Assembly (NCBI GenBank): GCA_036365515.1
Contig: CM070876.1
Location: 93,121,800-93,185,799, forward strand
Direction: 5' to 3'
Length of the DNA stretch: 64,000 nt
Source of the DNA: Torymus aiolomorphi
Taxonomy: Eukaryota; Arthropoda; Insecta; Hymenoptera; Torymidae
Shown here: positions 6,104 through 64,000 of the stretch, one piece after another
Layout: each line of letters opens with the position of its first letter
Numbering within the stretch: position 1 is the first letter of the stretch
Translations under genes and position numbers: made by a program
The notes under the pieces: generated by a model
Databases searched by the model: none
The model's input: only the letters and a program-made list of their open reading frames with translations
Told to the model about the DNA's origin: nothing

Positions 6104-6117
6104 TTATTTAAAATATC
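6104..6117 (+). repeat. 14-bp direct repeat, left border of ribozyme array (TSD)
   Basis: TTATTTAAAATATC is found here and again at 10085-10098, exactly bordering the 353-bp satellite. In the related uninterrupted copy near 24120-24145 only one diverged version is present. It reads as a target-site duplication. Confidence 0.82.
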
Positions 6118-6256
6118 ATGTAAGTAATGCTGCTAATGGGTAATACGGGCAAGTTTTTCGCGAGTGTCCTTTTTAATTAAAGGACCAATGAACAAAATTG
6201 TCAAAATTACGAAAAACAATAAGTTAATATCTTATTGTAGTCAAAGAAATCAATCG

Positions 6257-6323
6257 AAGTGTTTCGTCCAGGCTACTAGATTGGACTCATCAGTGATGAT
6301 CTAGTAGCTGTCATCAGACACTT
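6257..6323 (-). ncRNA. Type III hammerhead ribozyme, copy 1
   Basis: On the minus strand: stem III AAGUG-U then C (cleavage site), stem I UGAUGA/UCAUCA, core CUGAUGA, stem II GUCC/GGAC, core GAAA, stem III CACUU. All invariant core bases are present. Loop I has one change relative to the other copies (A for G). Confidence 0.92.
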
Positions 6324-6609
6324 GCCGCTGGGTGGTCACGGCCAAAACTTTATAGACTGAGCCACCTTTCTCACTAGTGGAAAAGGAGTCTCCATCTATC
6401 GGTATATAATTAACCCAAACACCGTATAATATAATATAAATTGATGAAGCTAATGCCCGATCAAGATTTCATGTAAGTAATGCTGCTAATGGCTAATACG
6501 GGCAAGTTTTTCGCGAGTGTCCTTTTTAATTAAAGGCCCAATGAACAAAATTGTCAAAATTACGAAAAACAATAAGTTAATATCTTATTGTAGTCAAAGA
6601 AATCAATCG

Positions 6610-6676
6610 AAGTGTTTCGTCCAGGCTACTAGATTGGACTCATCAGTGTTGATCTAGTAGCCGTCATCAGACACTT
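6610..6676 (-). ncRNA. Type III hammerhead ribozyme, copy 2
   Basis: Core CUGAUGA and GAAA are intact. Stem I is UGAUGA/UCAACA with one mismatch. Stem II GUCC/GGAC and the stem III pairing are complete. Confidence 0.9.
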
Positions 6677-6962
6677 GCCGCTGGGTCGTCACGGCCAAAG
6701 CTTTATAGACTGAGCCACCTTTTTCACTAGTGGAAAAGGAGGCTCCATCTATCGGTGTATAATTAACCCAAACACCGTATAATATAATATAAGTTTATGA
6801 AGCTAATGCCCGATCAAGATTTCATGTAAGTAATGCTGCTAATGGGAAATACGGGCAAGTTTTTCGCGAGTGTCCTTTTTAATTAAAGGCCCAATGAAAA
6901 AAATTGTCAAAATTACGAAAAACAATAAGTTAACATCTTATTGTAATCAAAGAAATCAATCG

Positions 6963-7029
6963 AAGTATTTCGTCCAGGCTACTAGATTGGACTCATCAGT
7001 GATGATCTAGTAGCCGTCATCAGACACTG
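6963..7029 (-). ncRNA. Type III hammerhead ribozyme, copy 3 (weaker stem III)
   Basis: The core is intact and stem I is perfect. Stem III is weakened: UACUU replaces CACUU after GAAA (a U-G wobble), and the opposite side reads CCAGUGUC instead of GCAAGUGUC. Confidence 0.87.
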
Positions 7030-7315
7030 GCCGCTGCGTGGTCACGGCCAAAGCTTTATAGACTGAGCCACCTTTTTCACTAGTGGAAAAGGAGGCTCCA
7101 TCTATCGGTGTATAATTAACCCAAACACCGTATAATATAATATAAATTGATGAAGCTAATGCCCGGTCAAGATTTCATGTAAGTAATGCTGCTAATGGGT
7201 AATACGGGCAAGTTTTTCGCGAGTGTCCTTTTTAATTAAAGGCCCAATGAAAAAAATTGTTAAAATTACGAAAAATAATAAGTTAATATCTTATTGTAGT
7301 CAAAGAAATCAATCG

Positions 7316-7382
7316 AAGTGTTTCGTCCAGGCTACTAGATTGGACTCATCAGTGATGATCTAGTAGCCGTCATCAGACACTT
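7316..7382 (-). ncRNA. Type III hammerhead ribozyme, copy 4
   Basis: Consensus copy: stems I (6 bp), II (4 bp) and III (about 6 bp) all pair, and the core CUGAUGA...GAAA is intact, with UC at the cleavage site. Confidence 0.92.
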
Positions 7383-7668
7383 GCCGCTGGGTGGTCACGG
7401 CCAAAACTTTATAGACTGAGCCACCTTTTTCACTAGTGGAAAAGGAGGCTCCATCTATCGGTGTATAATTAACCCAAACACCGTATAATATAATATAAAT
7501 TGATGAAGCTAATGCCCGATCAAGATTTCATGTAAGTAATGCTGCTAATGGGTAATACGGGCAAGTTTTTCGCGAGTGTCCTTTTTAATTAAAAGCCCAA
7601 TGAAAAAAATTGTCAAAATTACGAAAAACAATAAGTTAACATGTTATTGTAGTCAAAGAAATCAATCA

Positions 7669-7735
7669 AAGTATTTCGTCCAGTCTTCTAGATTGGACTC
7701 ATCAATAATGGTCTAGTAGCCGTCATCAGACACTT
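7669..7735 (-). ncRNA. Hammerhead ribozyme copy 5, probably inactive
   Basis: The core C of CUGAUGA is changed to U (UUGAUGA), stem I is disrupted (UGAUGA opposite CAUUAU-like sequence), and loop II is altered (AATCTAGAAGACT). That core C is near-invariant, so this copy should be dead or very slow. Confidence 0.85.
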
Positions 7736-8021
7736 GCCGCTGGGTGGTCACGGCCAAAGCTTTATAGACTGAGCCATCCTTTTCACTAGTGGAAAAGGAG
7801 GCTCCATCTATCTGTGTATAATTAACCCAAACACCGTATAATATAATATAAATTTATGAAGCTAATGCCCGATCAAGATTTCATGTAAGTAATGCTGCTA
7901 ATGGGTAATACGGGCAAGTTTTTCGCGAGTGTCCTTTTTAATTATAGGCCCAATGAAAAAAATTGTCAAAATTAGGAAAAACAATAAGTTAATATCTTAT
8001 TGTAGTCAAAGAAATCAATCG

Positions 8022-8088
8022 AAGTGTTTCGTCCAGGCTACTAGATTGGACTCATCAGTGATGATCTAGTAGCCGTCATCAGACACTT
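8022..8088 (-). ncRNA. Type III hammerhead ribozyme, copy 6
   Basis: Consensus copy with perfect stem I UGAUGA/UCAUCA, stem II GUCC/GGAC, and stem III AAGUGU opposite ACACUU. It is the last minus-strand copy before the inversion at about 8187. Confidence 0.92.
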
Positions 8089-8370
8089 GCCGCTGGGTGG
8101 TCACGGCCAAAGCTTTATAGACTGAGCCACCTTTTTCACTAGTGGAAAAGGAGGCTCCATCTATCGGTGTAGTAATTAACCCAAAAACTTGCCCGTATTA
8201 CCCATTAGCAGCATTACTTACATGAAATCTTGATCAGGCATTAGCTTCATAAATTTATATTATATTATACGGTGTTTGGGTTAATTATACACCGATAGAT
8301 GGAGCCTCCTTTTCCACTAGTGAAAAAGGTGGCTCAGTCTATAAAGCCTTGGCCGTGACCACCCAGCGGC

Positions 8371-8437
8371 AAGTGTCTGATGACGGCTACTAGATCATCA
8401 CTGATGAGTCCAATCTAGTAACCTAGACGTAACACTT
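8371..8437 (+). ncRNA. Hammerhead ribozyme copy 7, probably inactive
   Basis: First plus-strand copy after the inversion. Stem I is perfect, but GAAAC of the core is changed to GUAAC and stem II is weakened (GUCC opposite AGAC). A duplicated 3' half with the same GUAAC change follows at about 8480-8500. Confidence 0.87.
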
Positions 8438-8784
8438 CGATTGATTTCTTTGACTACAATAAGATATTAACTTATTATATAACCTGGACGTAACACTTCG
8501 ATTGATTTCTTTGACTACAATAAGATATTAACTTATTGTTTTTCGTAATTTTGACAATTTTTTTCAGTGGGCCTTTAATTAAAAAGGACACTCGCGAAAA
8601 ACTTGCCCGTATTACCCATTAGCAGCATTACTTACATGAAATGTTGATCGGGCATTAGCTTCATAAATTTACATTATATTATACGGTGTTTGGGTTAATT
8701 ATACACCGATAGATGGAGCCTCCTTTTCCACCAGTGAAAAAGGTGGCTCAGTCTATAAAGCTTTGGCCGTGACCACCCAGCGGC

Positions 8785-8851
8785 AAGTGTCTGATGACGG
8801 CTACTAGATCAGCACTGATGAGTCCAATCTAGTAGCCTGGACGAAACACTT
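8785..8851 (+). ncRNA. Type III hammerhead ribozyme, copy 8
   Basis: Core intact; stem I UGAUGA/UCAGCA has one mismatch; stems II and III are consensus. Confidence 0.9.
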
Positions 8852-9137
8852 CGATTGATTTCTTTGACTACAATAAGATATTAAATTATTGTTTTTCGTA
8901 ATTTTGACAATTTTTTTCATTGGGCCTTTAATTAAAAAGGACACTCGCGAAAAACTTGCCCGTATCACCCATTAGCAGCATTACTTACATGAAATCTTGA
9001 TCGGGCATTAGCTTCATAAATTTATATTATATTATACGGTGTTTGGGTTAATTATACACCGATAGATGGAGCCTCCTTTTCCACTAGTGAAAAATGTGGC
9101 TCAGTCTATAAAGCTTTGGCCGTGACCACCCAGCGGC

Positions 9138-9204
9138 AAGTGTCTGATGACGGCTACTAGATCAACACTGATGAGTCCAATCTAGTAGCCTGGACGAAAC
9201 ACTT
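9138..9204 (+). ncRNA. Type III hammerhead ribozyme, copy 9
   Basis: Core intact; stem I UGAUGA/UCAACA has one mismatch; stems II and III are consensus. Confidence 0.91.
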
Positions 9205-9489
9205 CGATTGATTTCTTTGACTACAATAAGATATTAACTTATTGTTTTTCGTAATTTTGACAATTTTTTCATTGGGCCTTTAATTAAAAAGGACACTCGC
9301 GAAAAACTTACCCGTATTACCCATTAGCAGCATTACTCACATGAAATCTTGATCGGGCATTAGCTTCATAAATTTATATTATATTATACGGTGTTTGGGT
9401 TAATTATACACCGATAGATGGAGCCTCCTTTTCCACTAGTGAAAAAGGTGGCTCAGTCTATAAAGCTTTGGCCGTGACCACCCAGCGGC

Positions 9490-9556
9490 AAGTGTCTGAT
9501 GACGGCTACTAGATCAACACTGATGAGTCCAATCTAGTAGCCTGGACGAAACACTA
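9490..9556 (+). ncRNA. Type III hammerhead ribozyme, copy 10
   Basis: Core intact; stem I has one mismatch (UCAACA); stem III is one pair shorter (CACUA). Confidence 0.9.
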
Positions 9557-9842
9557 CGATTGATTTCTTTGACTACAATAAGATATTAACTTATTGTTTT
9601 TCGTAATTTTGACAATTTTTTTCATTGGGCCTTTAATTAAAAAGGACACTCGCGAAAAACTTGCCCGTATTACCCATTAGCAGCATTACTTACATGAAAT
9701 CTTGATCGGGCATTAGCTTCATAAATTTATATTATATTATACGGTGTTTGGGTTAATTATACACCGATAGATGGAGCCTCCTTTTCCACTAGTGAAAAAG
9801 GTGGCTCAGTCTATAAAGCTTTGGCCGTGATCACCCAGCGGC

Positions 9843-9909
9843 AAGTGTCTGATGACGGCTACTAGATCATCACTGATGAGTCCAATCTAGTAGCCTGGAC
9901 GAAACACTT
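9843..9909 (+). ncRNA. Type III hammerhead ribozyme, copy 11 (consensus)
   Basis: Reference copy. AAGUGU is stem III and C9849 is the nucleotide 5' of the expected cut. UGAUGA (9850-9855) pairs with UCAUCA (9867-9872). Core CUGAUGA is 9873-9879; GUCC (9880-9883) pairs with GGAC (9897-9900); GAAA is 9901-9904, followed by stem III CACUU. Loop I (11 nt) and loop II (13 nt) share a 10-nt perfect complement, GGCUACUAGA with UCUAGUAGCC. Confidence 0.93.
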
Positions 9910-10084
9910 CGATTGATTTCTTTGACTACAATATGATATTAACTTATTGTTTTTCGTAATTTTAACAATTTTTTTCATTGGGCCTTTAATTAAAAAGGAC
10001 ACTCGCGAAAAACTTGCCCGTATTACCCATTAGTAGCATTACTTACATGAAATCTTGATCGGGCATTAGCTTCATAAATTTATA

Positions 10085-10098
10085 TTATTTAAAATATC
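10085..10098 (+). repeat. 14-bp direct repeat, right border of ribozyme array (TSD)
   Basis: TTATTTAAAATATC is identical to 6104-6117. The sequence to its right resumes the TTAA element and matches 24145-24330. Confidence 0.82.
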
Positions 10099-18003: not shown

Positions 18004-18239
18004 CTTGAGCCAGACCGTTTTAGTCATTTCACAACAATCATCAAAATAATCCTAATAATCCTAGATATCGATACGTATGCGAAAGAATGTATAAATTGTA
18101 ACTGAGCATATTTCATTATCAGGCGCAAGAAAATATCTCAAACAGTCTCATTGAAATTAGAGAACTATAGACCCTCCTTAGACCCTCTACTACATTAGTT
18201 TATATTAAGAAAAAATACATTTAAAATTTGATTACTTAC
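18004..18239. other. AT-rich, probable intron sequence
   Basis: No repeat or frame recognised. If the exon at 18240-19591 is real, this is the start of its downstream intron, beginning with GTAAGT on the minus strand. Confidence 0.5.
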
Positions 18240-19591
18240 TATCCCTTAGAAAGAACATTTTTGTCATCATCTGAATCATCTATGGCTTCACATTTATTGT
18301 CATTTACTTGATTATTATCTGTTACAATTTCTGCACCAGTTATGTTCTGCAAATCAAAGTTTTCACCTTTTTTTCCCCCTGATTCACTTTCTGAGTCTGA
18401 GAAGGTTCGCACTTTTTTTTTCTTTAATAAATTCTCCTCATTATCTGAATCAAAACTTAAGACATGAGCATGCGAATTTCTACTTAAACTTCTTGATATC
18501 CTGGAACATGTTGAGCTTGATCTTGACAGTAATCGGGATCTTGATCTCTCTCTAGACTCAGATCGGGATCTTAGTGTAGAGGCTCTGGATACAGATCTAG
18601 ATTTAGACCTAGAATTGGATCTAGATAATGAGGTGGATTGTAAACGCTGTCTGGATGTTCTTATTAAACTTAACCTTGATGTTGATCTTGATCTCGATTT
18701 TGAAATTGATCTGGATCTCGATTTTGATACTGATTGTGATTTTGATTTTGATACTGATCGTGATCTCGATTTTGATACTGATCGTGATCTCGATTTTGAT
18801 ACTGATCGTGATCTCGATTTTGATGCTGATCGTGATCTCGATTTTGATACTGATCGTGATCGCGATTTTGATGCTGATCTTGATTTTGATTTCGATACCG
18901 TTCTCGATTTAGACTTGGATATTGATCTAGATTTTGATCCTGATCTCGATCTTGATTTTGAACATGACTTTGATCTTGATTTTGACACCGATCGCGAAAG
19001 CGAACTGGACGTTGACCTAGATCGCGAGTGAGATCTCGATTTCGATCCTAAGCTTGATATTGATACTGACTTCGATTTTGATGTCGATTTTGACTTAGAC
19101 ATCCTTGTATGACTTTTGTTTGAAGACTGCGACGATGATCGAGATCTTGAACGTGAATTCGCTTTTGAATATGATCTGGATACAAAATTGGAATCAACTG
19201 AATGCGATCTTGATTTTGATAAGGATCTTGATTTAGATCTGGATCCATCTGATTTTAATATTGACATAGATTGTTTTTCAATCAAACAATTGGATGGAAA
19301 AGAATTATAAGAGCTGTCTTTTATTGGCTCAGAAAGAATCGATTGTGTGTCTGAGGAAACTAAGCTTGATCCATATTTATCTTCAGAAGTAATCCTGCTT
19401 GTCTCTGCATATGATTCATTCACAAGGATAGAACATTTAACTATGTCATCAGTAACATCCATTTGGCATTTTCTTTCATTTGGATGATCCAAATCAACAT
19501 TTAATTCTATTGACATATTTGTAGCTACACAATAACTTTCTTCATCCAGCTTTTCAATTACTTCTATGTCAGAAAATTTCTGTTCTTTATG
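18240..19591 (-). CDS. Large internal exon of an SR-rich host protein (partial gene)
   Basis: A minus-strand frame of about 450 codons runs from a plausible acceptor (TTGATTCTTAG just upstream, AG at 19592-19593) to a strong donor GTAAGT at 18239-18234. The frame's own stop straddles the donor, and the only stop upstream lies at the acceptor, so it reads as an internal exon of about 1352 bp. The product has an acidic N-terminal part, then about 230 residues of S-R/S-K-S-R repeats, then KKKKVRTFSDSESESGGKKG and an acidic tail. SR/RS tracts occur in splicing and transcription-elongation factors. The KKKK...SDSESE tail recalls IWS1-type proteins, but that is a guess. Neighbouring exons were not found. 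This is the only host-gene candidate in the window. Confidence 0.7.
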
Positions 19592-40801: not shown

Positions 40802-41259
40802 ATGGCTGATTCTCCAGCTGATTAAATAGTTGAAATGATAATGGTTTTATGGCAATGTAATGGTAATTATCGTGCAGCAGCTAGGCGGTATGCTGAGTTC
40901 TATCCACAAAGGAGACATCCTACTGATTTGGCAGTCAGAACTTTAACTCAAAGAGCTCACGGTGGCCACGTTATTCGTCAGCGCAGGCACCACGAATACG
41001 ATGAAAACGATGCTCGTGTCGTGACGACTTTACTTTAGCAATTATTCATCTCGACCCGCATATTAGCACACGCCAAATTGAAAGAGAAATTGGTATTTTC
41101 CGTCCGACGGTTTTAAGGATTCTGAGAATTATTGACTATCATGCCTACCATATAACTTTAGTTCAGGAACTAAGGCAGAACCATATTCAATTGCGCACTG
41201 AATTTTGTCACTGGGCTTCAAGAATGATAGAAAATGATCCAGACTTTTTCAAACGTTAA
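40802..41259 (+). pseudogene. N-terminal half of a DUF4817/ITm-type transposase
   Basis: ATG at 40802 is followed by a stop after six codons. Then comes VEMIMVLWQCNGNYRAAARR and FYPQRRHPTDLAVRTLTQRA (the DUF4817 helix-turn-helix), ARVVTTLL, a frameshift near 41036, HISTRQIEREIGIFRPTVLR and YHAYHITLVQELRQNH, LRTEFCHWASRM. These are the two DNA-binding domains that precede the DDE domain in this transposase group. The frame ends with DPDFFKR and TAA at the edge of the minisatellite, so the catalytic domain is absent. It is non-functional, though the truncated DNA-binding part could in principle be made after repair of two defects. Confidence 0.85.
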
Positions 41260-41572
41260 ACAAGCACCCCAGTGAGAGGCAAGGGGACTCACGTTAAACA
41301 AGCACCCCAGTGAGAGGCAAGGGGACTCACGTTAAACAAGCACCCAAGTGAGAGGCAAGGGGACTCACGTTAAACAAGCACCCCAGTGAGAGGCAAGGGG
41401 ACTCACGTAAACAAGCACCCCAGTGACAGGCAAGAGGACTCACGTTAAAAAAGCATCCCAGTGAGAGGCAAAGGGACTCACGTTAAGAAAGCACCCCAGT
41501 GAGAGGCAAGGGGACTCACGTTAAACAAGCACCCCAGTGAGAGGCAAAGGGACTCACGTAAACAAGCACCCC
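41255..41572 (+). repeat. 38-bp minisatellite, about 8.4 copies
   Basis: The unit starts GTTAAACAAGCACCCCAGTG and ends AGGCAAGGGGACTCAC. Copies 5 to 7 carry small changes. The same family lies at 15010-15125, 15490-15600 and 62783-63100. Confidence 0.95.
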
Positions 41573-42344
41573 AAAGGAAATAGGCCTTACTACGTCCGCG
41601 TCGTTGTTTCTGGGCAACGCTAAAAGTAAGGACCCAGTATTATCAAAAAGAGCTTAAAGCCAATAGAGCAATGTTGCTGGAACTTCTGTAGATAAGTGAC
41701 CGCGAAAACTCCCAGGATAGTATTTTTAGCGATTTTCATGGAAATTGGAAAATTGACCCCACTTAAAGCGATTTGATCTCCATGTAGTACTCCGACGTCG
41801 CATCTGACTTCGAATTTATAATCAGCGACCCCCTAAAGCTCTCAGAATGTATTCTTAGTGATTTTCATAGTGATTCAAAATGACCTCATTTGGGATATTT
41901 CAGCCTCCATACGGTACCATCGCATCGCACCCCACAGAAACCTAACACCATATTCACAATTGGCGACCACAAAAATTTCTTAATTGGTTGAGTTTATCAA
42001 GGCTTGTTCTGCTTGAGACAACTATGAAATTTTGCGTTCTGACCAATTTTTAAGCATTTGACCTTGATTTAACCTAGTGGAGGTCACAAAAAATGTTTAA
42101 AGAACGGTTTTGGACGTAAAATTTTCCGCTCTATCCGATTCCGACGTCAGAAATAGGGGTTCTAATTTGAAAAAATGATCTTAACCTTGAAATGACCTTG
42201 AAAAATGATCTCAAGGTCAAATTGAAGGTGACCAAAAGTTGACCCCCATCGTCACGAACAATTTTCATCTGAACCATTTTTCTGTATCTGGCCTGCATTC
42301 GGAGATATTTGGCTGCATAGATTAAAATGAGACACCGTGTATAT

Positions 42345-45800: not shown

Positions 45801-47765
<1,965 letters not shown>

Positions 47766-49859: not shown

Positions 49860-52030
49860 AAAAAAAATTCTCCCTCGGCGGCTTTGAGATTTTCCAAACT
49901 TTTTATTGTAGAAATTACTTTCTAGGAACACAAGCTACATGTAAAAAAATTAAGAAGAAAATAAACTCCCCAGAACATTTCCAAACGGACCCAAAAAGGT
50001 GACAAACAGCGTGTTTGTAAGAAAAAAAAATTCTCCCTCAGCGGCTTTGGGCATTTCCAAACTTTTTATCGTGGAAATTACTTTCTAGGAACACAAGCTA
50101 CATGTAGAAAAATTAAGAAGAAAATAAACTCCCCGGAACATTTCCAAACGGGCCCAAAAAGTTGATAATACAGCGTATTTGCAGGAAAAAAAATTCTCAC
50201 TCGGCGGCTTTGGGCATTTCCAAACTTTTTATCGTGGAAATTACTTTCTAGGAACACAAGCTACATGTAGAAAAATTAAGAAGAAAATAAACTCCCGGAA
50301 CATTTCCAAACGGGCCCAAAAAGTTGATAATACAGCGTATTTGCAGGAAAAAATATTCTCACTCGGCGGCTTTGGGCATTTCCAAACTTTTTATCGCGAA
50401 CATTACTTTCTAGCAGCACAAGCTACATGTAAAAAAATTAAGAAGAAAATAAATTCCCCGGAACATTTCCAAACGGGCCCAAAAAGGTGACAAACAGCGT
50501 GTTTGTAAGAAAAAAAATTCTCCCTCAGCGGCTTTGGGCATTTCCAAACATTTTATCGTGGAAATTCCTTTCTACCGACACAAGCTACATGTAAAAAAAT
50601 TAAGAAGAAAATAGACTCCCCGGAACATTTCCAAACGGGCTCAAAAATTGATAATACAGCGTATTTGCAGGACAAAAAATTCTCACTCGGCGGCTTTGGG
50701 CATTTCCAAACTTTTTATCGCGAACATTACTTTCTAGCAGCACAAGCTACATGTAAAAAATTAAGAAGAAAATAAACTCCCCGGAACATTTCCAAACGGG
50801 CCCAAAAGGTGACAAACAGCGTGTTTGTAAGAAAAAAAATTCTCCTCAGCGGCTTTGGGCATTTCCAAACTTTTTATCGTGGAAATTACTTTCTAGGAAC
50901 ACAAGCTACATGTAGAAAAATTAAGAAGAAAATAAACTCCCCGGAACATTTCCAAATGGGCCCAAAAAGTTGATAATACAGCGTCTTTGCAGGAAAAAAA
51001 TTCTCACTCGCCGGCTTTGGGCATTTCCAAACTTTTTATCGCGAACATTACTTTCTAGCAGCACAAGCTACATGTAAAAAATTAAGAAGAAAATAAACTC
51101 CCGGAACATTTCCAAACGGGCCCAAAGAGGTCACAAACAGCGTGTTTGTAAGAAAAAAATTCTCCTCAGCGGCTTTAGGCATTTCCAAAGTTTTTATCGT
51201 GGAAATTACTTTCTAGCAACACAAGCTACATGCAAAAAAATTAAGAAGAAAATAAACTCCCGGAACATTTCCAAACGGGCCCAAAAAGTTGATAATACAG
51301 CGTATTTGCAGGAAAAAAAATTCTCACTCGGCGGCTTTGGGCATTTCCAAACTTTTTATCGTGGAAATTACTTTCTAGGAACACAAGCTACATGTAGAAA
51401 AATTAAGAAGAAAATAAACTTCCCGGAACATTTCCAAACGGGCCCAAAAAGTTGATAATACAGCGTATTTGCAGGAAAAAAAATTATCACGCGGCGGCTT
51501 TGGGCATTTCCAAACTTTTTATCGCGAACATTACTTTCTAGCAGCACAAGCTACATGTAAAAAAATTAAGAAGAAAATAAACTCCCGGAACATTTCCAAA
51601 CGGGCCCAAAGAGGTGACAAACAGCGTGTTTGTAAGAAAAAAAAATTCTCCCGCAGCGGCTTTAGGCATTTCCAAACTTTTTATCGGGGAAATTACTTTC
51701 TAGCAACACAAGCTACATGTAAAAAAATTAAGAAGAAAATAAACTCCCCGGAACATTTCCAAACGGGCCCAAAAAGTTGATAATACAGCGTATTTGCAGG
51801 AAAAAAAATTCTCACTCGGCGGCTTTGGGCATTTCCAAACTTTTTATTGCGAACATTACTTTCTAGCAGCACAAGCTACATGTAAAAAAATTAAGAAGAA
51901 AATAAACTCCCCGTAACATTTCCAAACGGGCCCAAAGAGGTGACAAACAGCGTGTTTGTAAGAAAAAAAAATTCTCCCTCAGCGGCTTTAGGCATTTCCA
52001 AACTTTTTATCGTGGAAATTACTTATGACA
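49860..52030 (+). repeat. Left-arm array, about 163-bp units
   Basis: Equivalent points (CACAAGCTACATG) recur at 49929, 50092, 50255, 50417 and on to about 51880. Two unit types alternate: one with CAGCGTGTTTGTAAG and GTGGAAATTACTTTCTAG, the other with CAGCGTATTTGCAGG and GCGAACATTACTTTCTAGCA. Open frames across units are repeat artefacts. Confidence 0.93.
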
Positions 52031-52330
52031 TTTACAATCTCTACTATCTCTTTTAATTTTTGAATAAAAGCAGATAAATAAAAAGTCCACTTACTAATGG
52101 GCGGATGGGGGGGGGGGGGTGTCGACCGGACCGAGCATTACGGGTAAGTTTTTCTCTTATCACTCTTTTATAATCACACGTTTAGGGCGTTGTGCCATTT
52201 TTTATTTACTACACAGAATTTTAATTTTACGCCTCCGATAGGGAATGTTTTCCGTCACTACTCCTACATAATAAGCTGTTTTGGGGTGTTCCGGAGAGTC
52301 GATTTGGTTCCTAATTTATTTTCGGGTATT
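52031..52330. other. Unique centre segment of the foldback element
   Basis: A non-repetitive stretch with a G-run (52108-52120), followed by the first degraded middle-type unit. No gene or TIR was seen; this is where an autonomous element would carry its transposase. Confidence 0.6.
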
Positions 52331-53125
52331 TTGTATGCTAAGAAAATAATTCCAGCAATAAAAAGTTTGGAAATGCCAAACGCCGCAGAGAGGGAATTTT
52401 TTTTCCATTACCACCCCTATATAATCAGCTGTTTGCGGCTGTTCCGCTGGGGAGTCGATTTGATTTGCATTATTTTTTACGGGTATTTTGTATGCTCAGA
52501 AAATAATTCCAGTAATGAAAAGTTTGGAAATGCCAAACGCCGCGGAGAGGGAATTTTTTTTCCGTTACCACCCCTATACAATCAGCTGTTTGGGGGTGTT
52601 CCGGAGAGTCAATTTGGTTCGTCATTTTTTTACGGGTATTTTGTGTGCTCAGAAAATAATTCCAGCAATAAAAAGTTTGGAAATGCCAAACGCCGCGGAG
52701 AGGGAATTTTTTTTCCGTTACCACCCCTTTACAATCAGCTGTTTGAGGGTGTTCCCGGTAGTCGATTTGGTTTGTAATTTATTTACGGGTATTTTGTATG
52801 CTCAGGAAATAATTCCAGCATAAAAAAGTTTGGAAATGCCTAACGTAGCATAGAGAGAATTTTTTCTCCGTTACTACCCCTATATAATCAGCTGTTTGGC
52901 GGTGTTCCGGGTAGTCGATTTGGTAAGTAATTTTTTTTCGGGTATTTTGTGTACTCAGAAAATAATTCCAGCAATAAAAAGTTTGGAAATGCCAAACGCC
53001 GCGGAGAGGGAATTTTTTTTCCGTTACCACCCCTATATAATCAGCTGTTTGGGGGTGTTCCGGGGAGTCAATTTGGTTTGTAATATTTTTACGGGTATTT
53101 TGTATGCTCAGAAAATAATTCCAGC
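52331..53125 (-). repeat. Middle array, 153-157-bp units (third type)
   Basis: AAAAGTTTGGAAATGCC recurs at about 52361, 52517, 52671, 52824, 52977 and 53130. Units share that core and GAGAGGGAATTTTTTTTCC with the arm units but have their own CCACCCCTATATAATCAGCT and ACGGGTATTTTGTATGCTCA. Orientation matches the right arm. Confidence 0.9.
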
Positions 53126-56100
53126 TTTGAAAAGTTTGGAAATGCCCAAAGCCGCCGAGGGAGAATTTTTTTTTCTTACGCTGTTTGTCAACTTTTTGGG
53201 CCCGGTTGGAAATGTTCCGGGGAGTTTATTTTCTTCTTAATTTTTTTACATGTTGCTTCTGTTCCCAGAAAGTAATTTCCACGATAAAAAGTTTGGAAAT
53301 GCCCAAAGGTGCAGAGGGAGAATTTTTTTTTTCTTACAAATACGCTGTTTGTAAAACTTTTGGGCCCGTTTGGAAATGTTCCGCGGAGTTTATTTCCTTC
53401 TTAATTTTTTTACATGTAGCTTGTGTTCCTAGAAAGTAATTTCCACGATAAAAAGTTTGGAAATGCCCAATGCCGCCGAGGGAGAATTTTTTTTCCGGCA
53501 AATACGCGGTATTATCAAATTTTGGGCCCGTTTGGAAATGTTCCGGGGAGTTTATTTTGTTCTTAATTTTTTTACATGTTGCTTGTGTTCCCAGAAAGTA
53601 ATTTCCACGATAAAAAGTTTGGAAATGCCAAAAGGTGCCGAGGGAGAATTTTTTTTTCTTACAAATACGCTGCTTGTCAACTTTTTGGGCCCGTTTGGAA
53701 ATGTTCCGGGGAGTTTATTTCCTTCTTAATTTTTTTAAATGTAGCTTGTGCTGCTAGAAAGTAATGTTCGCTATAAAAAGTTTGGAAATGCCCAAAGCCG
53801 CCGAGTGAGAATTTTTTTTCCTGCAAATACGCTGTATTATCAACTTTTTGGGCCCGTTTGGAAATGTTCCGGGGAGTTTATTTTCTTCTTAATTCTTTTA
53901 CATGTAGCTTGTGTTGCTAGAAAGTAATTTCCACGATAAAAAGTTTGGAAATGCCTAAAGCCGCTGAGGGAGAATTTTTTTTTCTTACAAACACGCTGTT
54001 TGTCACCTCTTTGGGCCCGTTTGGAAATGTTCCGGGGAGTTTATTTTCTTCTTAATTTTTTTACATGTAGCTTGTGCTGCTAGAAAGTAATGTTCGCGAT
54101 AAAAAGTTTGGAAATGCCCAAAGCCGCCGAGTGAGAATTTTTTTGACTGCAAATACGCTGTATTATCAACTTTTTGGGCCCATTTGGAAATGTTCCGGGG
54201 AGTTTATTTTCTTCTTAATTTTTCTACATGTAGCTTGTGTTCCTAGAAAGTAATTTCCACGATAAAAAGTTTGGAAATGCCCAAAGCCGCTGAGGGAGAA
54301 TTTTTTTTTCTTACAAACACGCTGTTTGTCACCTCTTTGGGCCCGTTTGGAAATGTTCCGGGGAGTTTATTTTCTTCTTAATTATTTTACATGTAGCTTG
54401 TGCTGCTAGAAAGTAATGTTCGCGATAAAAAGTTTGGAAATGCCCAAAGCCGCCGAGTGAGAATTTTTTTTCCTGCAAATACGCTGTATTATCAAATTTT
54501 GGGCCCATTTGGAAATGTTCCGGGGAGTTTATTTTCTTCTTAATTTTTCTACATGTAGCTTGTGTTCCTAGAAAGTAATTTCCACAATAAAAAGTTTGGA
54601 AATGCCCAAAGCCGCTGAGGGAGAATTTTTTTTTCTTACAAACACGCTGTTTGTCACCTTTTTGGGCCCGTTTGGAAATGTTCCGGGGAGTTTATTTTCT
54701 TCTTAATTTTTTTACATGTAGCTTGTGCTGCTAGAAAGTAATGTTCGCCATAAAAAGTTTGGAAATACCCAAAGCCGCCGAGTGAGAATTTTTTTTCCTG
54801 CAAATACGCTGTATTATCAACTTTTTGGGCCCGTTTGGAAATGTTCCGGGGAGTTTATTTTCTTCCTAATTTTTTTACATGTAGCTTGTATTGCTAGAAA
54901 GTAATTTCCACGATAAAAAGTTTGGAAATGCCTAAAGCCGCTGAGGAAGAATTTTTTTTTCTTACAAACACGCTGTTTGTCACCTCTTTGGGCCCGTTTG
55001 GAAATGTTCCGGGGAGTTTATTTTCTTCTTAACTATTTTACATGTAGCTTGTGCTGCTAGAAAGTAATGTTCGCTATAAAAAGTTTGGAAATGCCCAAAA
55101 CCGCTGAGGGAGAATTTTTTTTTCTTACAAAGACGCTGTTTGTCACCTTTTTGGGCCCGTTTGGAAATGTTCCGGGGAGTTTATTTTCTTCTTAATTTTT
55201 TTACATGTAGCTTGTGTCGCTAGAAAGTAATTTCCACGATAAAAAGTTTGGAAATGCCCAAAGCCGCTGAGGGAGAATTTTTTTTTCTTACAAACACGCT
55301 GTTTGTCACCTTTTTGGGCCCGTTTGGAAATGTTCCGGGGAATTTATTTTCTTCTTAATTTTTTTACATGTAGCTTGTGCTGCTAGAAAGTAATGTTCGC
55401 GATAAAAAGTTTGGAAATGCCCAAAGCCGCCGAGTGAGAAGTATTTTTCCTGGAAATACGCTGTATTATCACCTTTTTGGGCCCGTTTGGACATGTTCCG
55501 GGGAGTTTATTTTCTTCTTAATTTTTTTTACATGTAGCTTGTGTTGCTAGAAAGTAATTTGCACGACAAAAAGTTTCGAAATGCCTAAAGGCGCTGAGGG
55601 AGAATTTTTTTTCTTAAAAACACGCTGTTTGTCACCTCTTTGGGCCCGTTTGGAAATGTTCCGGGAGTTTATTTTCTTCTTAACTTTTTTACATGTAGCT
55701 TGTGCTGCTGGAAAGTAATGGTCGCTATAAAAAGTTTGGGGTGGCCCAAGCCCGCTGAGGGAGAATTTTTTTTCTTACAAAGACGCTGTTTGTCACCTTT
55801 TTGGGCCCGTTTGGAAATGTTCCGGGGAGTTTATTTTCTTCTTAATTTTTTTACATGTAGCTTGTGTCGCTAGAAAGTAATTTCCACGATAAAAAGTTTG
55901 GAAATGCCTAAAGCCGCTGAGGGAGAATTTTTTTTTCTTACAAACACGCTGTTTGTCACCTTTTTGGGCCCGTTTGGAAATGTTCCGGGGAATTTATTTT
56001 CTTCTTAATTTTTTTACATGTAGCTTGTGCTGCTAGAAAGTAATGTTCGCGATAAAAAGTTTGGAAATGCCCAAAGCCGCCGAGTGAGAAATTTTTTTTC

Positions 56101-59100
56101 CTTCAAATACGCTGTATTATCAACTTTTTGGGCCCGTTTGGAAATGTTCCGGGGAGTTTATTTTCTTCTTAATTTTTTTACATGTAGCTTGTGTTGCTAG
56201 AAAGTAATTTCCACGATAAAAAGTTTGGAAATGCCTAAAGCCGCTGAGGGAGAATTTTTTTTTCTTACAAACACGCTGTTTGTCACCTCTTTGGGCCCGT
56301 TTGGAAATGTTCCGGAGAGTTTATTTTCTTCTTAATTTTTTTACATGTAGCTTGTGCTGCTAGAAAGTAATGTTCGCGATAAAAAGTTAGGAAATGCCCA
56401 AAGCCGCCGAGTGAGAATTTTTTTTCCTGCAAATACGCTGTATTATCAACTTTTTGGGCCCGTTTGGACATGTTCCGGGGAGTTTATTTTCTTCTTAATT
56501 TTTTTACATGTAGCTTGTGTTGCTAGAAAGTAATTTCCACGATAAAAAGTTTGGAAATGCCTGAAGCCGCTGAGGGAGAATTTTTTTTTCTTACAAACAC
56601 GCTGTTTCTCACCTCTTTGGGCCCGTTTGGAAATGTTCCGGGGAGTTTATTTTCTTCTTAATTTTTTTACATGTAGCTTGTGCTGCTAGAAAGTAATGTT
56701 CGCGATAAAAAGTTTGGAAATGCCCAAAGCCGCCGAGTGTGAATTTTTTTTCCTGCAAATACGCTGTATTATCAACTTTTTGGGCCCGTTTGGAAATGTT
56801 CCGGGGAGTTTATTTTCTTCTTAATTTTTTTACATGTAGCTTGTGTTGCTAGAAAGTAATTTCCACGATAGAAAGTTTGGAAATGCCTAAAGCCGCTGAG
56901 GGAGAATTTTTTTTTCTTAAAAACACGCTGTTTGTCACCTCTTTGGGCCCGTTTGGAAATGTTCTGGGGAGTTTATTTTCTTCTTAACTTTTTTACATGT
57001 AGCTTGTGCTGCTAGAAAGTAATGTTCGCTATAAAAAGTTTGGAAATGCCCAAAGCCGCTGAGGGAGAATTTTTTTTTCTTACAAAGACGCTGTTTGTCA
57101 CCTTTTTGGGCCCGTTTGGAAATGTTCCGGGGAGTTTCTTTTCTTCTTAATTTTTTTACATGTAGCTTGTGTCGCTAGAAAGTAATTTCCACGATAAAAA
57201 GTTTGGAAATGCCTAAAGCCGCTGAGGGAGAATTTTTTTTTCTTACAAACACGCTGTTTGTCACCTTTTTGGGCCCGTTTGGAAATGTTCCGGGGAATTT
57301 ATTTTCTTCTTAATTTTTTTACATGTAGCTTGTGCTGTTAGAAAGTAATGTTCGCGATAAAAAGTTTGGAAATGCCCAAAGCCGCCGAGTGAGAAATTTT
57401 TTTTCCTTCAAATACGCTGTATTATCAACTTTTTGGGCCCGTTTGGAAATGTTCCGGGGAGTTTATTTTCTTCTTAATTTTTTTACATGTAGCTTGTGTT
57501 GCTAGAAAGTAATTTCCACGATAAAAAGTTTGGAAATGCCTAAAGCCGCTGAGGGAGAATTTTTTTTTCTTACAAACACGCTGTTTGTCACCTCTTTGGG
57601 CCCGTTTGGAAATGTTCCGGGGAGTTTATTTTCTTCTTAATTTTTTTACATGTAGCTTCTGCTGCTAGAAAGTAATGTTCGCGATAAAAAGTTTGGAAAT
57701 GCCCAAAGCCGCCGAGTGAGAATTTTTTTTCCTGCAAATACGCTGTATTATCAACTTTTTGGGCCCGTTTGGAAATGTTCCGGAGAGTTTATTTTCTTCT
57801 TAATTTTTTTACATGTAGCTTGTGTTGCTAGAAAGTAATTTCCACGATAAAAAGTTTGGAAATGCCCAAAGCCGCTGAGGGAGAATTTTTTTTTCTTACA
57901 AACACGCTGTTTGTCACCTTTTTGGGCCCGTTTGGAAATGTTCCGGGGAGTTTATTTTTTTCTTAATTTTTTTACATGTAGCTTGTGCTGCTAGAAAGTA
58001 ATGTTCGCGATAAAAAGTTTGGAAATGCCCAAAGCCGCCGAGTGAGAATTTTTTTTCCTGCAAATACGCTGTATTATCAACTTTTTGGGCCCGTTTGGAA
58101 ATGTTCCGGGGAGTTTATTTTCTTCTTAATTTTTCTACATGTAGCTTGTGTTCCTAGAAAGTAATTTCCACGATAAAAAGTTTGGAAATACCCAAAGCCG
58201 CTGAGGGAGAATTTTTTTTTCTTACAAACACGCTGTTTGTCACCTTTTTGGGCCCGTTTGGAAATGTTCCGGGGAGTTTATTTTCTTCTTAATTTTTTTA
58301 CATGTAGCTTGTGCTGCTAGAAAGTAATGTTCGCGATAAAAAGTTTGGAAATGCCCAAAGCCGCCGAGTGAGAATTTTTTTTCCTGCAAATACGCTGTAT
58401 TATCAACTTTTTGGGCCCGTTTGGAAATGTTCCGGAGAGTTTATTTTCTTCTTAATTTTTTTACATGTAGCTTGTGCTGCTAGAAAGTAATGTTCGCGAT
58501 AAAAAGTTTGGAAATGCCCAAAGCCGCCGAGTGAGAATTTTTTTCCTGCAAATACGCTGTATTATCAACTTTTTGGGCCCGTTTGGAAATGTTCCGGGGA
58601 GTTTATTTTCTTCTTAATTTTTTTACATGTAGCTTGTGTTGCTAGAAAGTAATTTCCACGATAAAAAGTTTGGAAATGCCCAAAGCCGCTGAGGGAGAAT
58701 TTTTTTTTCTTACAAACACGCTGTTTGTCACCTTTTTGGGCCCGTTTGGAAATGTTCCGGGGAATTTATTTCCTTCTTAATTTTTTTACATGTAACTTGT
58801 GCTGCTAGAAAGTAATGTTCGCGATAAAAAGTTTGGAAATGCCCAAAGCCGCCGAGTGAGAATTTTTTTTCCTGCAAATACGCTGTATTATCAACTTTTT
58901 GGGCCCGTTTGGAAATGTTCCGGGGAGTTTATTTTCTTCTTAATTTTTCTACGTGTAGCTTGTGTTCCTAGAAAGTAATTTCCACGATAAAAAGTTTGGA
59001 AATGCCCAAAGCCGCTGAGGGAGAATTTTTTTTTCTTACAAACACGCTGTTTGTCACCTTTTTGGGCTCGTTTGGAAATGTTCCGGGGAGTTTATTTTCT

Positions 59101-59190
59101 TCTTAATTTTTTTACATGTAGCTTGTGTTCCTAGAAAGTAATTTCTACAATAAAAAGTTTGGAAAATCTCAAAGCCGCCGAGGGAGAATT
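53126..59190 (-). repeat. Right-arm array, about 37 units of about 163 bp
   Basis: Reverse orientation relative to the left arm, with the same two alternating types (CACGCTGTTTGTCACC and TACGCTGTATTATCAACT). Some neighbouring blocks of about 800 bp look almost identical (for example around 55080-55440 and 56990-57410), suggesting recent unequal exchange. Confidence 0.93.
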
Positions 59191-59550
59191 TTTTTTTATT
59201 GCATTTTTACATCTACCCTGTATAATCACCCGTTTGGGGTGGTTTTGGGGGTGGGGATAATTTGATATCGGTTTATATCAATTATTTTTGATGAATTCTT
59301 GTGTTATTTACAATATCTGGTGTCATTCTCCCTGAGAAATTTGATTTTAGAAAAATGGAATTTTCGTTCTCTTAGGTTGTCTTACGAATTCCGTGTTAGG
59401 GGTGGGGGGTAGTTTGGAATTGATTTATTTTGATCAATTTTCATGTATTCTTCCATTATTTGCAGTATATTATGCTATTCATGTGGAAAAAAGGTGTTTT
59501 TCGAAAATCGAATTTTCGTTGGATCGCAACGTTGCAAACTTCAAACCCAT

Positions 59551-60935
59551 GGAAAGGTTCCGGATGGATTTTGATATCGGCAATCTTTTTATAACTATTT
59601 GGTAAGCTCTCAAAGAAATTCTCACGATTAAATCTTTGTTAAATTCATAAACTGTCGCGATAGAATTTTTCAAACTTATGATTCACGTATTTTTCACCGA
59701 TTTGCCCCATTCGCACCCCCTGAAGGAAAGGTTCCGGATGGATTTTGATATCGGCAATTTTTTATATGTTTTTGGGAAGCTTCCGAACTCATTTCCATGA
59801 CAAAATTTTTATTAAATTTATAAACTCTCGAGATAGAATTTTTCAAAAATATGTTTCACGTATTTTTCACCGATTTGCCTCATTCGCACCACCAGAAGGA
59901 AAGCTACCGGATGAATTTCGATACCGGCAATTTTTTTATAAGTATTTAAGAAGCTCCGGAACTTATTTCCGCGATAAAATTTTACTTAAATTCATAAACT
60001 GTCGAGATAGAATTTTTCAAACGTATGTTTCAGGTATTTTTCACCGATTTGATCCATTCGCACCCCTGAAGGAAAGGTTCCGGATGGATTTTAATATCGG
60101 CAATTTTTTATATGTTTTTGGAAAGCTTCCGAACTCAGTTCCATGACAAAATTTTTATTAAATTTATAAACTCTCGAGATAGTATTTTTCAAAAGTATGT
60201 TTCACGTATTTTTCACCGATTTTCCCCATTCGCACCACCAGAAGGAAAGCTTCCGGATGGATCTCAATACCGGCAATTTTTTTATAACTATTTTTTAAGC
60301 TCTCAAAGAAATTTCCGCGATAAAATTTTTATTAAATTCATAAACTGTCGAGATAGAATTTTTCAAACGTATGTTTCAGGTATTTTTCACTGATTTGATC
60401 CATTCGCACCCATGAAGGAAAGGAAACTGTCAGGATAGAATTTTTCAAACGTATTTTTCACGTGTTTTTCACCGATTTGCCCCATTCGTACACCCTGAAG
60501 GAAAGGTTCCGGATGGATTTTAATATCGGCAATTTTTTATATGTTTTTGGAAAGCTTCCGAACTCAGTTCCATGACAAAATTTTTATTAAATTTATAATC
60601 TCTCGAGATAGTATTTTTCAAAAGTATGTTTCACGTATTTTTCACCGATTTTCTCCATTCGCACCACCAGAAGGAAAGCTTCCGGATGGATCTCGATACC
60701 GGCAATTTTTTTATAACTATTTGGTAAGCTCTCAAAGAAATTCCCGCGATAAAATTTTTATTAAATTCATAAACTGTCGAGATAGAATTTTTCAAAGGTA
60801 TGTTTCACGTCTTTTTCACCGATTTGCCCGATTCGCACCCCCTGAAGGAAAGGTTCCGGAAGGATTTTCATATTGGCAATTTTTTTATAAGTATTTGGTA
60901 AGCTCTCAAAAAAATTCCCGCGATAAAATTTTTAA
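59551..60935 (+). repeat. 173-bp satellite, right portion (about 8 units)
   Basis: The block before CCGGATGGAT recurs at 59557, 59731, 59903, 60077, 60249, 60506, 60679 and 60852 (172-174 bp; one partial unit near 60420-60500). Two variants alternate: CTGAAGGAAAGGTTCCGG and CAGAAGGAAAGCTTCCGG. Frames spanning units are artefacts. Confidence 0.92.
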
Positions 60936-61604
60936 TTGTAATACGATAATGTATAGTGCCCTACGACTTTTCGAGACAATTATAACTAGATCAGTATTAT
61001 TAGATCGGTAACATTAAAATCTTATAATAACGATAACCTAAAACTTTTAACCGATTAGATTAAAACCATTTCAAAATAAAAATAAAATAACTCCACACAA
61101 GGGCCCCCAATTTGGAAGATTTTTGTTTGTACTTACAACAAAGTAAATGTAAATTAGAAGAAAAGTAGAGAAAATTTTCATAACAGTTTTCATAACCTCA
61201 AAATCCTACAAGAGACATCGGTATTTTTCTAATTCTTGTAGAAAACCCTATTTAAGTTGTCGAAAAATGATTCTTTTTTGTAAAAATGTTGACTTCTGAG
61301 TTCGTCCATCTATAATATATAATCCCAGACGTGTGATAAACCATAACCTTATAACAACTCCAAGTTGAAAACTTCCCCGGAATGACGGGTTAAGGTGGTT
61401 CTTTCATGACTTCCCTAGTCAAAGCAATGCTAAATAAAGAGGGTACCTAAAATTACGAAAACCATAGTTGAAATGTGATTTATTTTTTTAAAATGATAGA
61501 AATAGTCAATGTATTATAAATAAAGTATATTTTACATGACTAAGATATCTTTTTTAACAAAATGTCGATATCTTAGAAACAGCACAAACAATTATTGATA
61601 AAAC
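60936..61604. other. AT-rich, no gene seen
   Basis: It lies between the satellite and the segmental duplication. No recognisable repeat or coding frame. Confidence 0.5.
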
Positions 61605-62329: not shown

Positions 62330-62787
62330 ATGGCTGATTCTCCAGCTGATTAAATAGTTGAAATGATAATGGTTTTATGGCAATGTAATGGTAATTATCG
62401 TGCAGCAGCTAGGCGGTATGCTGAGTTCTATCCACAAAGGAGACATCCTACTGATTTGGCAGTCAGAACTTTAACTCAAAGAGCTCACGGTGGCCACGTT
62501 ATTCGTCAGCGCAGGCACCACGAATACGATGAAAACGATGCTCGTGTCGTGACTACTTTACTTTAGCAATTATTCATCTCGACCCGCATATTAGCACACG
62601 CCAAATTGAAAGAGAAATTGGTATTTTCCGTCCGACGGTTTTAAGGATTCTGAGAATTATTGACTATCATGCCTACCATATAACTTTAGTTCAGGAACTA
62701 AGGCAGAACCATATTCAATTGCGCACTGAATTTTGTCACTGGGCTTCAAGAATGATAGAAAATGATCCAGACTTTTTCAAACGTTAA
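62330..62787 (+). pseudogene. Second copy of the truncated DUF4817 transposase
   Basis: Identical to 40802-41259 apart from one base (G to T near 62553), including the early stop after six codons and the frameshift near 62564. Since both copies share every defect, the gene was already dead before duplication. Confidence 0.88.
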
Positions 62788-63100
62788 ACAAGCACCCCAG
62801 TGAGAGGCAAGGGGACTCACGTTAAACAAGCACCCCAGTGAGAGGCAAGGGGACTCACGTTAAACAAGCACCCAAGTGAGAGGCAAGGGGACTCACGTTA
62901 AACAAGCACCCCAGTGAGAGGCAAGGGGACTCACGTAAACAAGCACCCCAGTGACAGGCAAGAGGACTCACGTTAAAAAAGCATCCCAGTGAGAGGCAAA
63001 GGGACTCACGTTAAGAAAGCACCCCAGTGAGAGGCAAGGGGACTCACGTTAAACAAGCACCCCAGTGAGAGGCAAAGGGACTCACGTAAACAAGCACCCC
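62783..63100 (+). repeat. 38-bp minisatellite, second copy
   Basis: Copy-for-copy match to 41255-41572, including the variant units 5 to 7. Confidence 0.95.
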
Positions 63101-64000
63101 AAAGGAAATAGGCCTTACTACGTCCGCGTCGTTGTTTCTGGGCAACGCTAAAAGTAAGGACCCAGTATTATCAAAAAGAGCTTAAAGCCAATAGAGCAAT
63201 GTTGCTGGAACTTCTGTAGATAAGTGACCGCGAAAACTCCCAGGATAGTATTTTTAGCGATTTTCATGGAAATTGGAAAATTGACCCCACTTAAAGCGAT
63301 TTGATCTCCATGTAGTACTCCGACGTCGCATCTGACTTCGAATTTATAATCAGCGACCCCCTAAAGCTCTCAGAATGTATTCTTAGTGATTTTCATAGTG
63401 ATTCAAAATGACCTCATTTGGGATATTTCAGCCTCCATACGGTACCATCGCATCGCACCCCACAGAAACCTAACACCATATTCACAATTGGCGACCACAA
63501 AAATTTCTTAATTGGTTGAGTTTATCAAGGCTTGTTCTGCTTGAGACAACTATGAAATTTTGCGTTCTGACCAATTTTTAAGCATTTGACCTTGATTTAA
63601 CCTAGTGGAGGTCACAAAAAAATGTTTAAAGAACGGTTTTGGACGTAAAATTTTCCGCTCTATCCGATTCCGACGTCAGAAATAGGGGTTCTAATTTGAA
63701 AAAATGATCTTAACCTTGAAATGACCTTGAAAAATGATCTCAAGGTCAAATTGAAGGTGACCAAAAGTTGACCCCCATCGTCACGAACAATTTTCATCTG
63801 AACCATTTTTCTGTATCTGGCCTGCATTCGGAGATATTTGGCTGCATAGATTAAAATGAGACACCGTGTATATATAGAATGTTTCAGGTGAAGTGAACAT
63901 GTCAAAATTTTAAAATCGCTCAGAACTAGTTTAATTTGAGTTTTTTATGAAAAAAACATGTTCCTCAAATTTTAGGTCGATATTTGCATAAACAAAAAAT

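Follow-up and report, generated by a model that had tools for sequence, protein, structure and literature searches.

An inverted double array of type III hammerhead units with Penelope-like insertion ends in Torymus aiolomorphi

Animal retrozymes without long terminal repeats (non-LTR retrozymes) consist of non-coding units a few hundred bp long (~150–450) in tandem, with low G+C content (<50%) and target-site duplications longer than 4 bp, and pass through a circular RNA intermediate (PMC7229834). The enzyme that returns their RNA to the genome has so far been a reasoned guess, with Penelope-like elements (PLEs) named as a strong candidate driver (PMC7229834). PLEs are described with inverted pseudo-LTRs (pLTRs), one of which carries an optional 31-bp tail (PMC3846280), and a purified PLE is reported to cut both strands, extend each of them, and initiate reverse transcription (RT) at two neighbouring internal sites, which delimit the genomic tail (PMC11167929). 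Here, we describe an element of Torymus aiolomorphi (Hymenoptera: Torymidae) found in a 64,000-nucleotide stretch of DNA (C4:93121800–93185799 of a 1.08-Gb, 21-contig genome; hereafter ‘the window’). We consider it likely that this element is a non-autonomous, PLE-mobilised retrozyme of 353-nt units, each with a type III hammerhead ribozyme, probably copied from a circular RNA by synthesis that starts at both cut strands of its target. Its PLE-like ends suggest how a ribozyme-bearing RNA returns to an animal genome.

The element occupies positions 6118–10084 of the window and contains eleven 353-bp units with one type III hammerhead each, six on the minus strand followed by five on the plus strand, i.e., two head-to-head arms whose units point outwards. 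The left arm (6118–8188, minus strand) comprises 5.88 units, and the right arm (8183–10084, plus strand) bears five hammerheads; their outer ends fall at two preferred positions in the unit, site A for the left arm and site B for the right arm. The alignments of both arms overlap by 6 nt at the head-to-head junction (8183–8188, a microhomology). Tandem Repeats Finder reports 353-bp arrays at 6116–8185 (5.9 copies) and 8483–10088 (4.6 copies), as well as a 61-bp tandem duplication (8419–8537, plus strand) within the first unit of the right arm. The array is bounded by two identical copies of the 14-bp direct repeat TTATTTAAAATATC (6104–6117 on the left and 10085–10098 on the right), which we read as a target-site duplication. 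The locus is thus a single inverted-arm insertion with direct-repeat boundaries and no one-way tandem array, and the label ‘satellite’ given to it in the preliminary description does not hold. It displays the features of a PLE-type insertion, i.e., head-to-head arms, a one-sided 30–40-nt tail, and a short duplication. No open reading frame of 150 or more amino acids lies within 6118–10084, and no reverse transcriptase/GIY-YIG frame is found in the element. Non-coding tandem units of this length, a G+C content of 0.380, and a duplication longer than 4 bp are shared with animal non-LTR retrozymes (PMC7229834). Unlike them, the element has inverted double arms with A/B ends and a type III instead of a type I hammerhead; the hammerhead type is a defining feature, and its difference makes the element a variant outside animal retrozymes as described.

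The unit is dispersed in the genome, with at least 253 matches (39 of 438 candidate stretches were scored). The two-armed places among the matches listed have the minus arm on the left and the plus arm on the right, and all 12 neighbouring opposite-strand pairs among 86 typed places from the listed matches of the hammerhead core pattern (see below) run minus-then-plus. We read 29 loci (the window, 20 loci, and 8 further stretches) and the ends of 10 more, giving 38 insertions. L046 and L047 share one duplication and were counted once, the interrupted left arm of L013 and of L040 was taken as a single arm, the end was corrected at L013 and L044 for letters belonging to the duplication, and the second end of L012 and L080–L083 was taken from genome match rows; the counts of outer versus inner ends and of duplications refer to 28 loci, with L012, which is cut off, omitted. 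In a register where position 1 directly follows the ribozyme cut, site A lies at ~198–210 (~200) and site B at ~234–245 (~238), ~36 nt apart. Over the 28 loci, 42 of 49 outer ends fall at A or B, as against 7 of 42 inner ends. Twenty-one of the 38 insertions have one end at each site (A+B), one is A+A, nine have one end elsewhere, and seven are single-armed and anchored at A. The mixed combination in 21 of the 22 insertions with two canonical ends has p = 5.5e-6 under random choice, and all four ends predicted in writing before sequence retrieval, with the other end known, proved right. Inner junctions depart slightly from uniformity (Kolmogorov–Smirnov p = 0.044) and are therefore termed scattered, not exactly uniform.

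Head-to-head arms are typical of assembly artefacts arising from a palindromic read, and the sole A+A case (L084/L085, C4:56012470–56015770) is symmetrical into its (TG)n and (CA)n flanks and has no duplication. A copy at L011 lies ~2.6 kb from L084/L085. Such an origin of the inverted structure is barely credible, given that the arms are unlike in length, in unit variants, and in outer end (A versus B), that the flanks differ and a short duplication is present at many loci, and that the PLEs of the genome show the same order; we reject an assembly palindrome, L084/L085 perhaps excepted.

Exact direct repeats of 12–16 bp accompany 17 of the 28 loci, while the 754 mispaired flank pairs used as a control share at most 11 nt (17 of these share 10 or more). 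Along with the dispersed insertions and the preferred outer ends, the target-site duplications at many loci back the notion of a mobile RNA put forward in the preliminary description. Segmental duplication also occurs, as L046/L047 and L102/L106 bear the same duplications, and together with the tandem units and the higher-order patterns in long arms it would fit conventional satellite DNA that has spread through unequal crossing-over and segmental duplication and in which the hammerhead is a relic. This account is very improbable in view of the target-site duplications, the favoured outer ends, the tails on one side, and the head-to-head arrangement of dispersed loci, and we reject unequal crossing-over alone as a satellite origin on the duplications and end positions.

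The genome also harbors PLEs, with at least 120 GIY-YIG matches to the PF01541 profile among the 150 scored of 4,041 candidates. The PLE at L078 has an open reading frame of 862 codons encoding RVT_1 and GIY-YIG; its arms lie head to head, with a 14-bp duplication and a tail of ~40 nt on one side. Its repeats (1476 and 4308 on the plus strand, 240 on the minus strand) carry CTGAAGA...GAAACGTC, read by eye as a minimal hammerhead such as has been reported for PLEs; an Rfam scan of two PLE loci (L078/L079) matched neither a type III hammerhead nor this minimal motif. Our PLE sample consists of L078 and seven other minus-then-plus neighbours picked by eye (8 of ~12 such pairs), and head-to-head order is a selection criterion in it and not a result. 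With unreadable ends at L104/L105, and L106/L107 counted with L102/L103 (same duplications), six independent readable PLE insertions were obtained, all six with a tail at one end only and 13–15-bp duplications. Other type III families, with units of ~457 bp and others and with different bodies (L052–L058, L061–L076, L110–L112), are head-to-head in the two-armed cases listed, and the three two-armed insertions read among them (two of the 457-bp unit, one other) all have a one-sided 30–39-nt tail and 13–14-bp duplications. The element resembles PLEs (PMC3846280, PMC11167929) in its head-to-head inverted arms, the 30–40-bp tail at the end of one arm, the short duplications, the A+T-rich targets, and the start of RT, as read from its end positions, at two internal sites; it differs in that its unit lacks the reverse transcriptase/GIY-YIG frame and has a type III hammerhead instead of the minimal one read in L078. 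The one-sided tail and 13–15-bp duplications of the six PLE insertions match published PLE biochemistry, and many insertions of the element bear similar ends; a PLE protein probably inserts these elements in trans.

The arms also record their template. At five variant sites (four recurrent, one private to L031) chosen after inspection of the data, all 149 arm cells of two or more units are unmixed, with up to 21/21 units in L031. The 58 both-arm cells at these sites include 51 without the variant, seven in which it is shared, and none discordant, an outcome matched in extremity by 2 of 20,000 shuffles. When all 11 recurrent sites are taken, 323 cells are uniform and 13 mixed, with six shared, nine discordant, and 116 without the variant; the shared count is reached by 12 of 20,000 shuffles, and the excess of shared variants persists. 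The mixed cells are mostly single units, fitting repeated later mutation, with L037 and L050 as real exceptions. We read this as a single RNA haplotype behind most insertions, whether one molecule or sister RNAs with a common source. Of 54 arm pieces, 36 are longer than one unit and thus traverse the ribozyme cut site, so that cut linear monomers are unfit as their template; for the longest arm, of 20.8 units (L031), a circle is a likelier template than an uncut 7-kb RNA. Self-cleavage and circularisation, as suggested in the preliminary description, would agree with this copying pattern.

Eleven type III hammerheads, one per 353-bp unit and nine with intact cores, had been claimed for the locus, and the analysis confirms this observation. 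In general terms, the motif has the type III topology, with a conserved core, three helices, and helix III open. The RF00008 (Hammerhead_3) model matches 10 of 11 units at 29.3–39.4 bits (best E-value 3.3e-6 for 4.2 kb), and an intact core (UH cut site, CUGAUGAG, CGAAA) is present in nine of the eleven units at the locus and in 117 of 133 copies overall. Copies with intact cores lie on the minus strand at 6256–6324 (39.4 bits), 6609–6677 (35.0 bits), 6962–7030 (29.7 bits), 7315–7383 (39.4 bits), and 8021–8089 (39.4 bits), and on the plus strand at 8784–8852 (35.0 bits), 9137–9205 (35.0 bits), 9489–9557 (30.3 bits), and 9842–9910 (39.4 bits). Two copies are degenerate: that at 7668–7736 (minus strand), recognized from its letters without a cmscan match, has a core U for C (UUGAUGA, core near 7705) and loop changes, and that at 8370–8438 (plus strand, the copy at 8401, 29.3 bits) has GTAA for GAAA. 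An Rfam score below threshold had been named in advance as evidence against these ribozymes, and none of the copies reaches the gathering score of 48.5 bits, the best being 39.4 bits in the window and 40.2 among the 68 scored genome candidates. Taken literally, this part of the search went against the motif; the cut-off is a database limit and no structural feature, and the scores probably stay below it owing to the greater length of loops I and II compared with the RF00008 model. The reality of the motif is upheld by the E-values, the intact cores, and the changes between families on both sides of stem I and in the loop pairing. Genome-wide, the pattern CTGATGAGTCC-N(8-20)-GGACGAAAC occurs 1535 times and the reversed pattern not once; thus, the match of core plus stem II is not due to chance. 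A search for relatives in IMG/VR gave no exact match of a 35-nt core.

In the unit, loop I is complementary to loop II over 11 nt. Hammerhead pseudoknots of 4–6 bp are known (PMC3088659), and loop pairing over 4 nt has been described for type III hammerheads of hepatitis delta virus-like (HDV-like) RNAs, which have similar counterparts in flies (PMC7936874). In 16 selected native loop pairs from five sequence groups (the window (W), L059, L061, and L068 read by eye), the longest paired run is 6–12 nt, with a mean of 9.06, as against a mean of 4.97 in 188 mismatched between-group pairs, four of which reach 9–10; shuffles equal the native run in 2.7–6.0% for four pairs (L062, L053, L074, L076). 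This set omits near-repeats of kept pairs (L066, L067, L075, L077), broken motifs (L056, L060, L069, L072), and decayed pairs, several with runs of 5 (L063, L071, copies in L057, and one in L051). Long loop I–loop II complementarity is retained in unrelated type III families of the genome, and between groups stem I differs on both sides while the loop pairing is also kept. At L051:1501–1564, beside normal copies, we observed a hammerhead minus five loop II nucleotides, with 5 nt of loop–loop pairing left.

In folding predictions, the loop pairs are compatible with the active fold, where they would make a kissing contact, and also with an inert hairpin, in which case the ribozyme could block itself; animal retrozyme circles are mostly not blocked by self-pairing (PMC7229834). 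The predicted energy of the hairpin is −23.3 kcal/mol, compared to −9.7 kcal/mol for the hammerhead helices without loop–loop pairing, and these values, like the Rfam scores under the gathering cut-off, would suit a plain hairpin with an incidental core and no working hammerhead. We regard that explanation as improbable, since a core-plus-stem II pattern found 1535 times and never in reverse, the cores intact in 117/133 copies, and a stem I altered on both sides between families with the loop pairing retained all speak for a working ribozyme.

The insertion of a PLE-mobilised retrozyme can be rationalized into six steps. (i) Cleavage: transcripts of the array would cut themselves at the type III hammerheads. 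(ii) Closure: the cut RNA would be closed into a 353-nt circle, or sometimes an oligomer. (iii) Target cutting: a PLE protein, acting in trans, would cut both strands of an A+T-rich target 12–16 bp apart, a spacing suggested by the duplications. (iv) Initiation: judging from the end positions, RT would begin inside the RNA, at site A from one cut strand and at site B, ~36 nt off, from the other. (v) Copying: this would span from a fraction of a unit to ~20 units, as in the arms observed, presumably by circling the template. (vi) Joining: the two cDNAs would be linked head to head, the junctions lying at scattered positions and often showing a few-nt microhomology, as observed, and the outcome would be an inverted double array like that in the window. 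A bolder version, possible in our view and distinctly tentative, has one 353-nt circle yield the double array in a single event, with two RT subunits working at once (at A and B), each primed by a different strand of the same cut target, while refolding of loops I and II from a kissing contact to an inert hairpin spares the circle from self-cutting; the figure behind the refolding idea is the 6–12 nt of complementarity in the 16 loop pairs compared.

A number of observations, set out in this paragraph and the next, weigh against a PLE-mobilised retrozyme copied round a circle. A direct repeat of 12 bp is missing in 11 of the 28 loci, and one of 10 bp in 10 of 28; four of seven single-armed copies have no direct repeat, and six later-retrieved pairs gave one clear 14-bp repeat, one of 8 bp, and four without any. 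Two-armed insertions other than A+B include the A+A case and the nine of 38 with one canonical and one non-canonical end (L006, L007, L011, L034, L037, L049, L088, L090, and L092). Three loci predicted as A+B with both ends unseen proved to be one A+B, one A+A, and one with an odd end, and none of three loci predicted as single-armed at A was single-armed, their left ends being B, A, and B. From this prediction record, the A+B rule is valid for the commonest class and not for every insertion. The unit and the PLE loci L078/L079, those read in length, share only short matches, with no significant similarity, and sequence kinship between them was dropped as a candidate explanation. A common RT-start hairpin near site A in the retrozyme and PLEs, promising by eye, was likewise abandoned, as a run as long arises in 4,858 of 20,000 shuffles of the unit and in 3,134 of 20,000 shuffles of the second PLE family; the first PLE family has no run of that kind. 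Lastly, the lowest-energy predicted fold of the ribozyme is the inactive hairpin, also when folded as a circle.

The template record contains contrary points as well. Three of the nine discordant cells are in L037 and one in L050. Mean distances are 0.0198 within an arm, 0.0293 between the arms of one locus (17 pairs), and 0.0262 between loci; the two arms of a locus are on average no closer to each other than to other loci. As evidence for a single template these means are weak or contrary, and shared variants were tested in their place. Long arms hold 47 middle-frequency variants, compared to six fixed and one in all but one unit, L036 alternates as ABAB, and L031 and L033 show period-4 patterns. 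The middle-frequency variants and the period-4 patterns require a contribution from subsequent duplication or from oligomeric templates. For a PLE in vitro, cleavage by its own ribozyme is dispensable and uncut RNA is the main substrate (PMC11167929), and a multimer that stays uncut might serve as template here too. The same PLE-driven insertion might start from a linear multimer left uncut after transcription of an older array, with the hammerhead unneeded for copying, and a patterned source array could supply the middle-frequency variants and the period-2 and period-4 arm patterns. We judge this unlikely, while giving it some weight: the 20.8-unit arm of L031 would require an RNA exceeding 7 kb and left uncut at ~20 ribozymes in a family with 117/133 intact cores, and arms are uniform at the main family variants, as if begun from one unit (a uniform source array fits this equally well).

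Other ribozyme-bearing repeats share single features with the PLE-mobilised retrozyme proposed here. Plant LTR retrozymes (PMC7229834, PMC7761336) are similar in their type III hammerhead, non-autonomous nature, and circular RNA (presumed in our element), and differ in units of ~600–1000 bp and 4-bp duplications, as opposed to 353-bp units and 12–16-bp duplications here. The LTR-type dimeric arrangement is not matched by the 353-bp multimeric arms and 14-bp duplication of the window, primer-binding site and polypurine tract not having been searched for. The pseudoknotted type III hammerheads of dipteran genomes and of termite/toad HDV-like RNAs (PMC7936874), also known from insects, have Watson–Crick pairing between loops 1 and 2, in their case GCCR/YGGC (4 nt) with a longer helix I, unlike the 5–8-bp stem I and 6–12 nt of terminal-loop complementarity found here. 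The pDo500 satellite of Dolichopoda cave crickets is another insect repeat with a conserved hammerhead, in a different unit, and the account consulted mentions no inverted insertions flanked by duplications (PMC2837043). In a literature search that left subscription journals and preprints outside its scope, we found no report of type III animal retrozymes with PLE-type ends. Type III hammerheads, called characteristic of plants (PMC7936874), now appear in an animal retrozyme-like element with an unusual loop–loop pairing kept despite sequence change. The PLE end signature is found at numerous insertions of a single genome, beside autonomous PLEs that share it, and the arms of these insertions record the template; the question of the driver becomes testable in vitro with one protein and one RNA, and the arms may offer a natural case of RT primed on an RNA circle.

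The window contains further repeats and reading frames. Large tandem arrays of ~153–163 and 174 bp occupy positions 49860–61011, and reading frames run through part of their repeats. An array with a 38-bp period occurs twice with equal figures, at 41253–41573 and 62781–63101, 21,528 bp apart, accompanied by matching letters at 40981 and 62509; these are probably two copies of one element. At 45882–46727, a (TA)98 run lies between nearly inverted copies of the 19-bp repeat CGCTGTTATTTCCGGGACG, and the region resembles an inverted-repeat element with a long TA tract at its centre. Finally, a 450-codon frame rich in SR dipeptides is found at 18239–19591 (minus strand), with a 187-codon open frame on the opposite strand.

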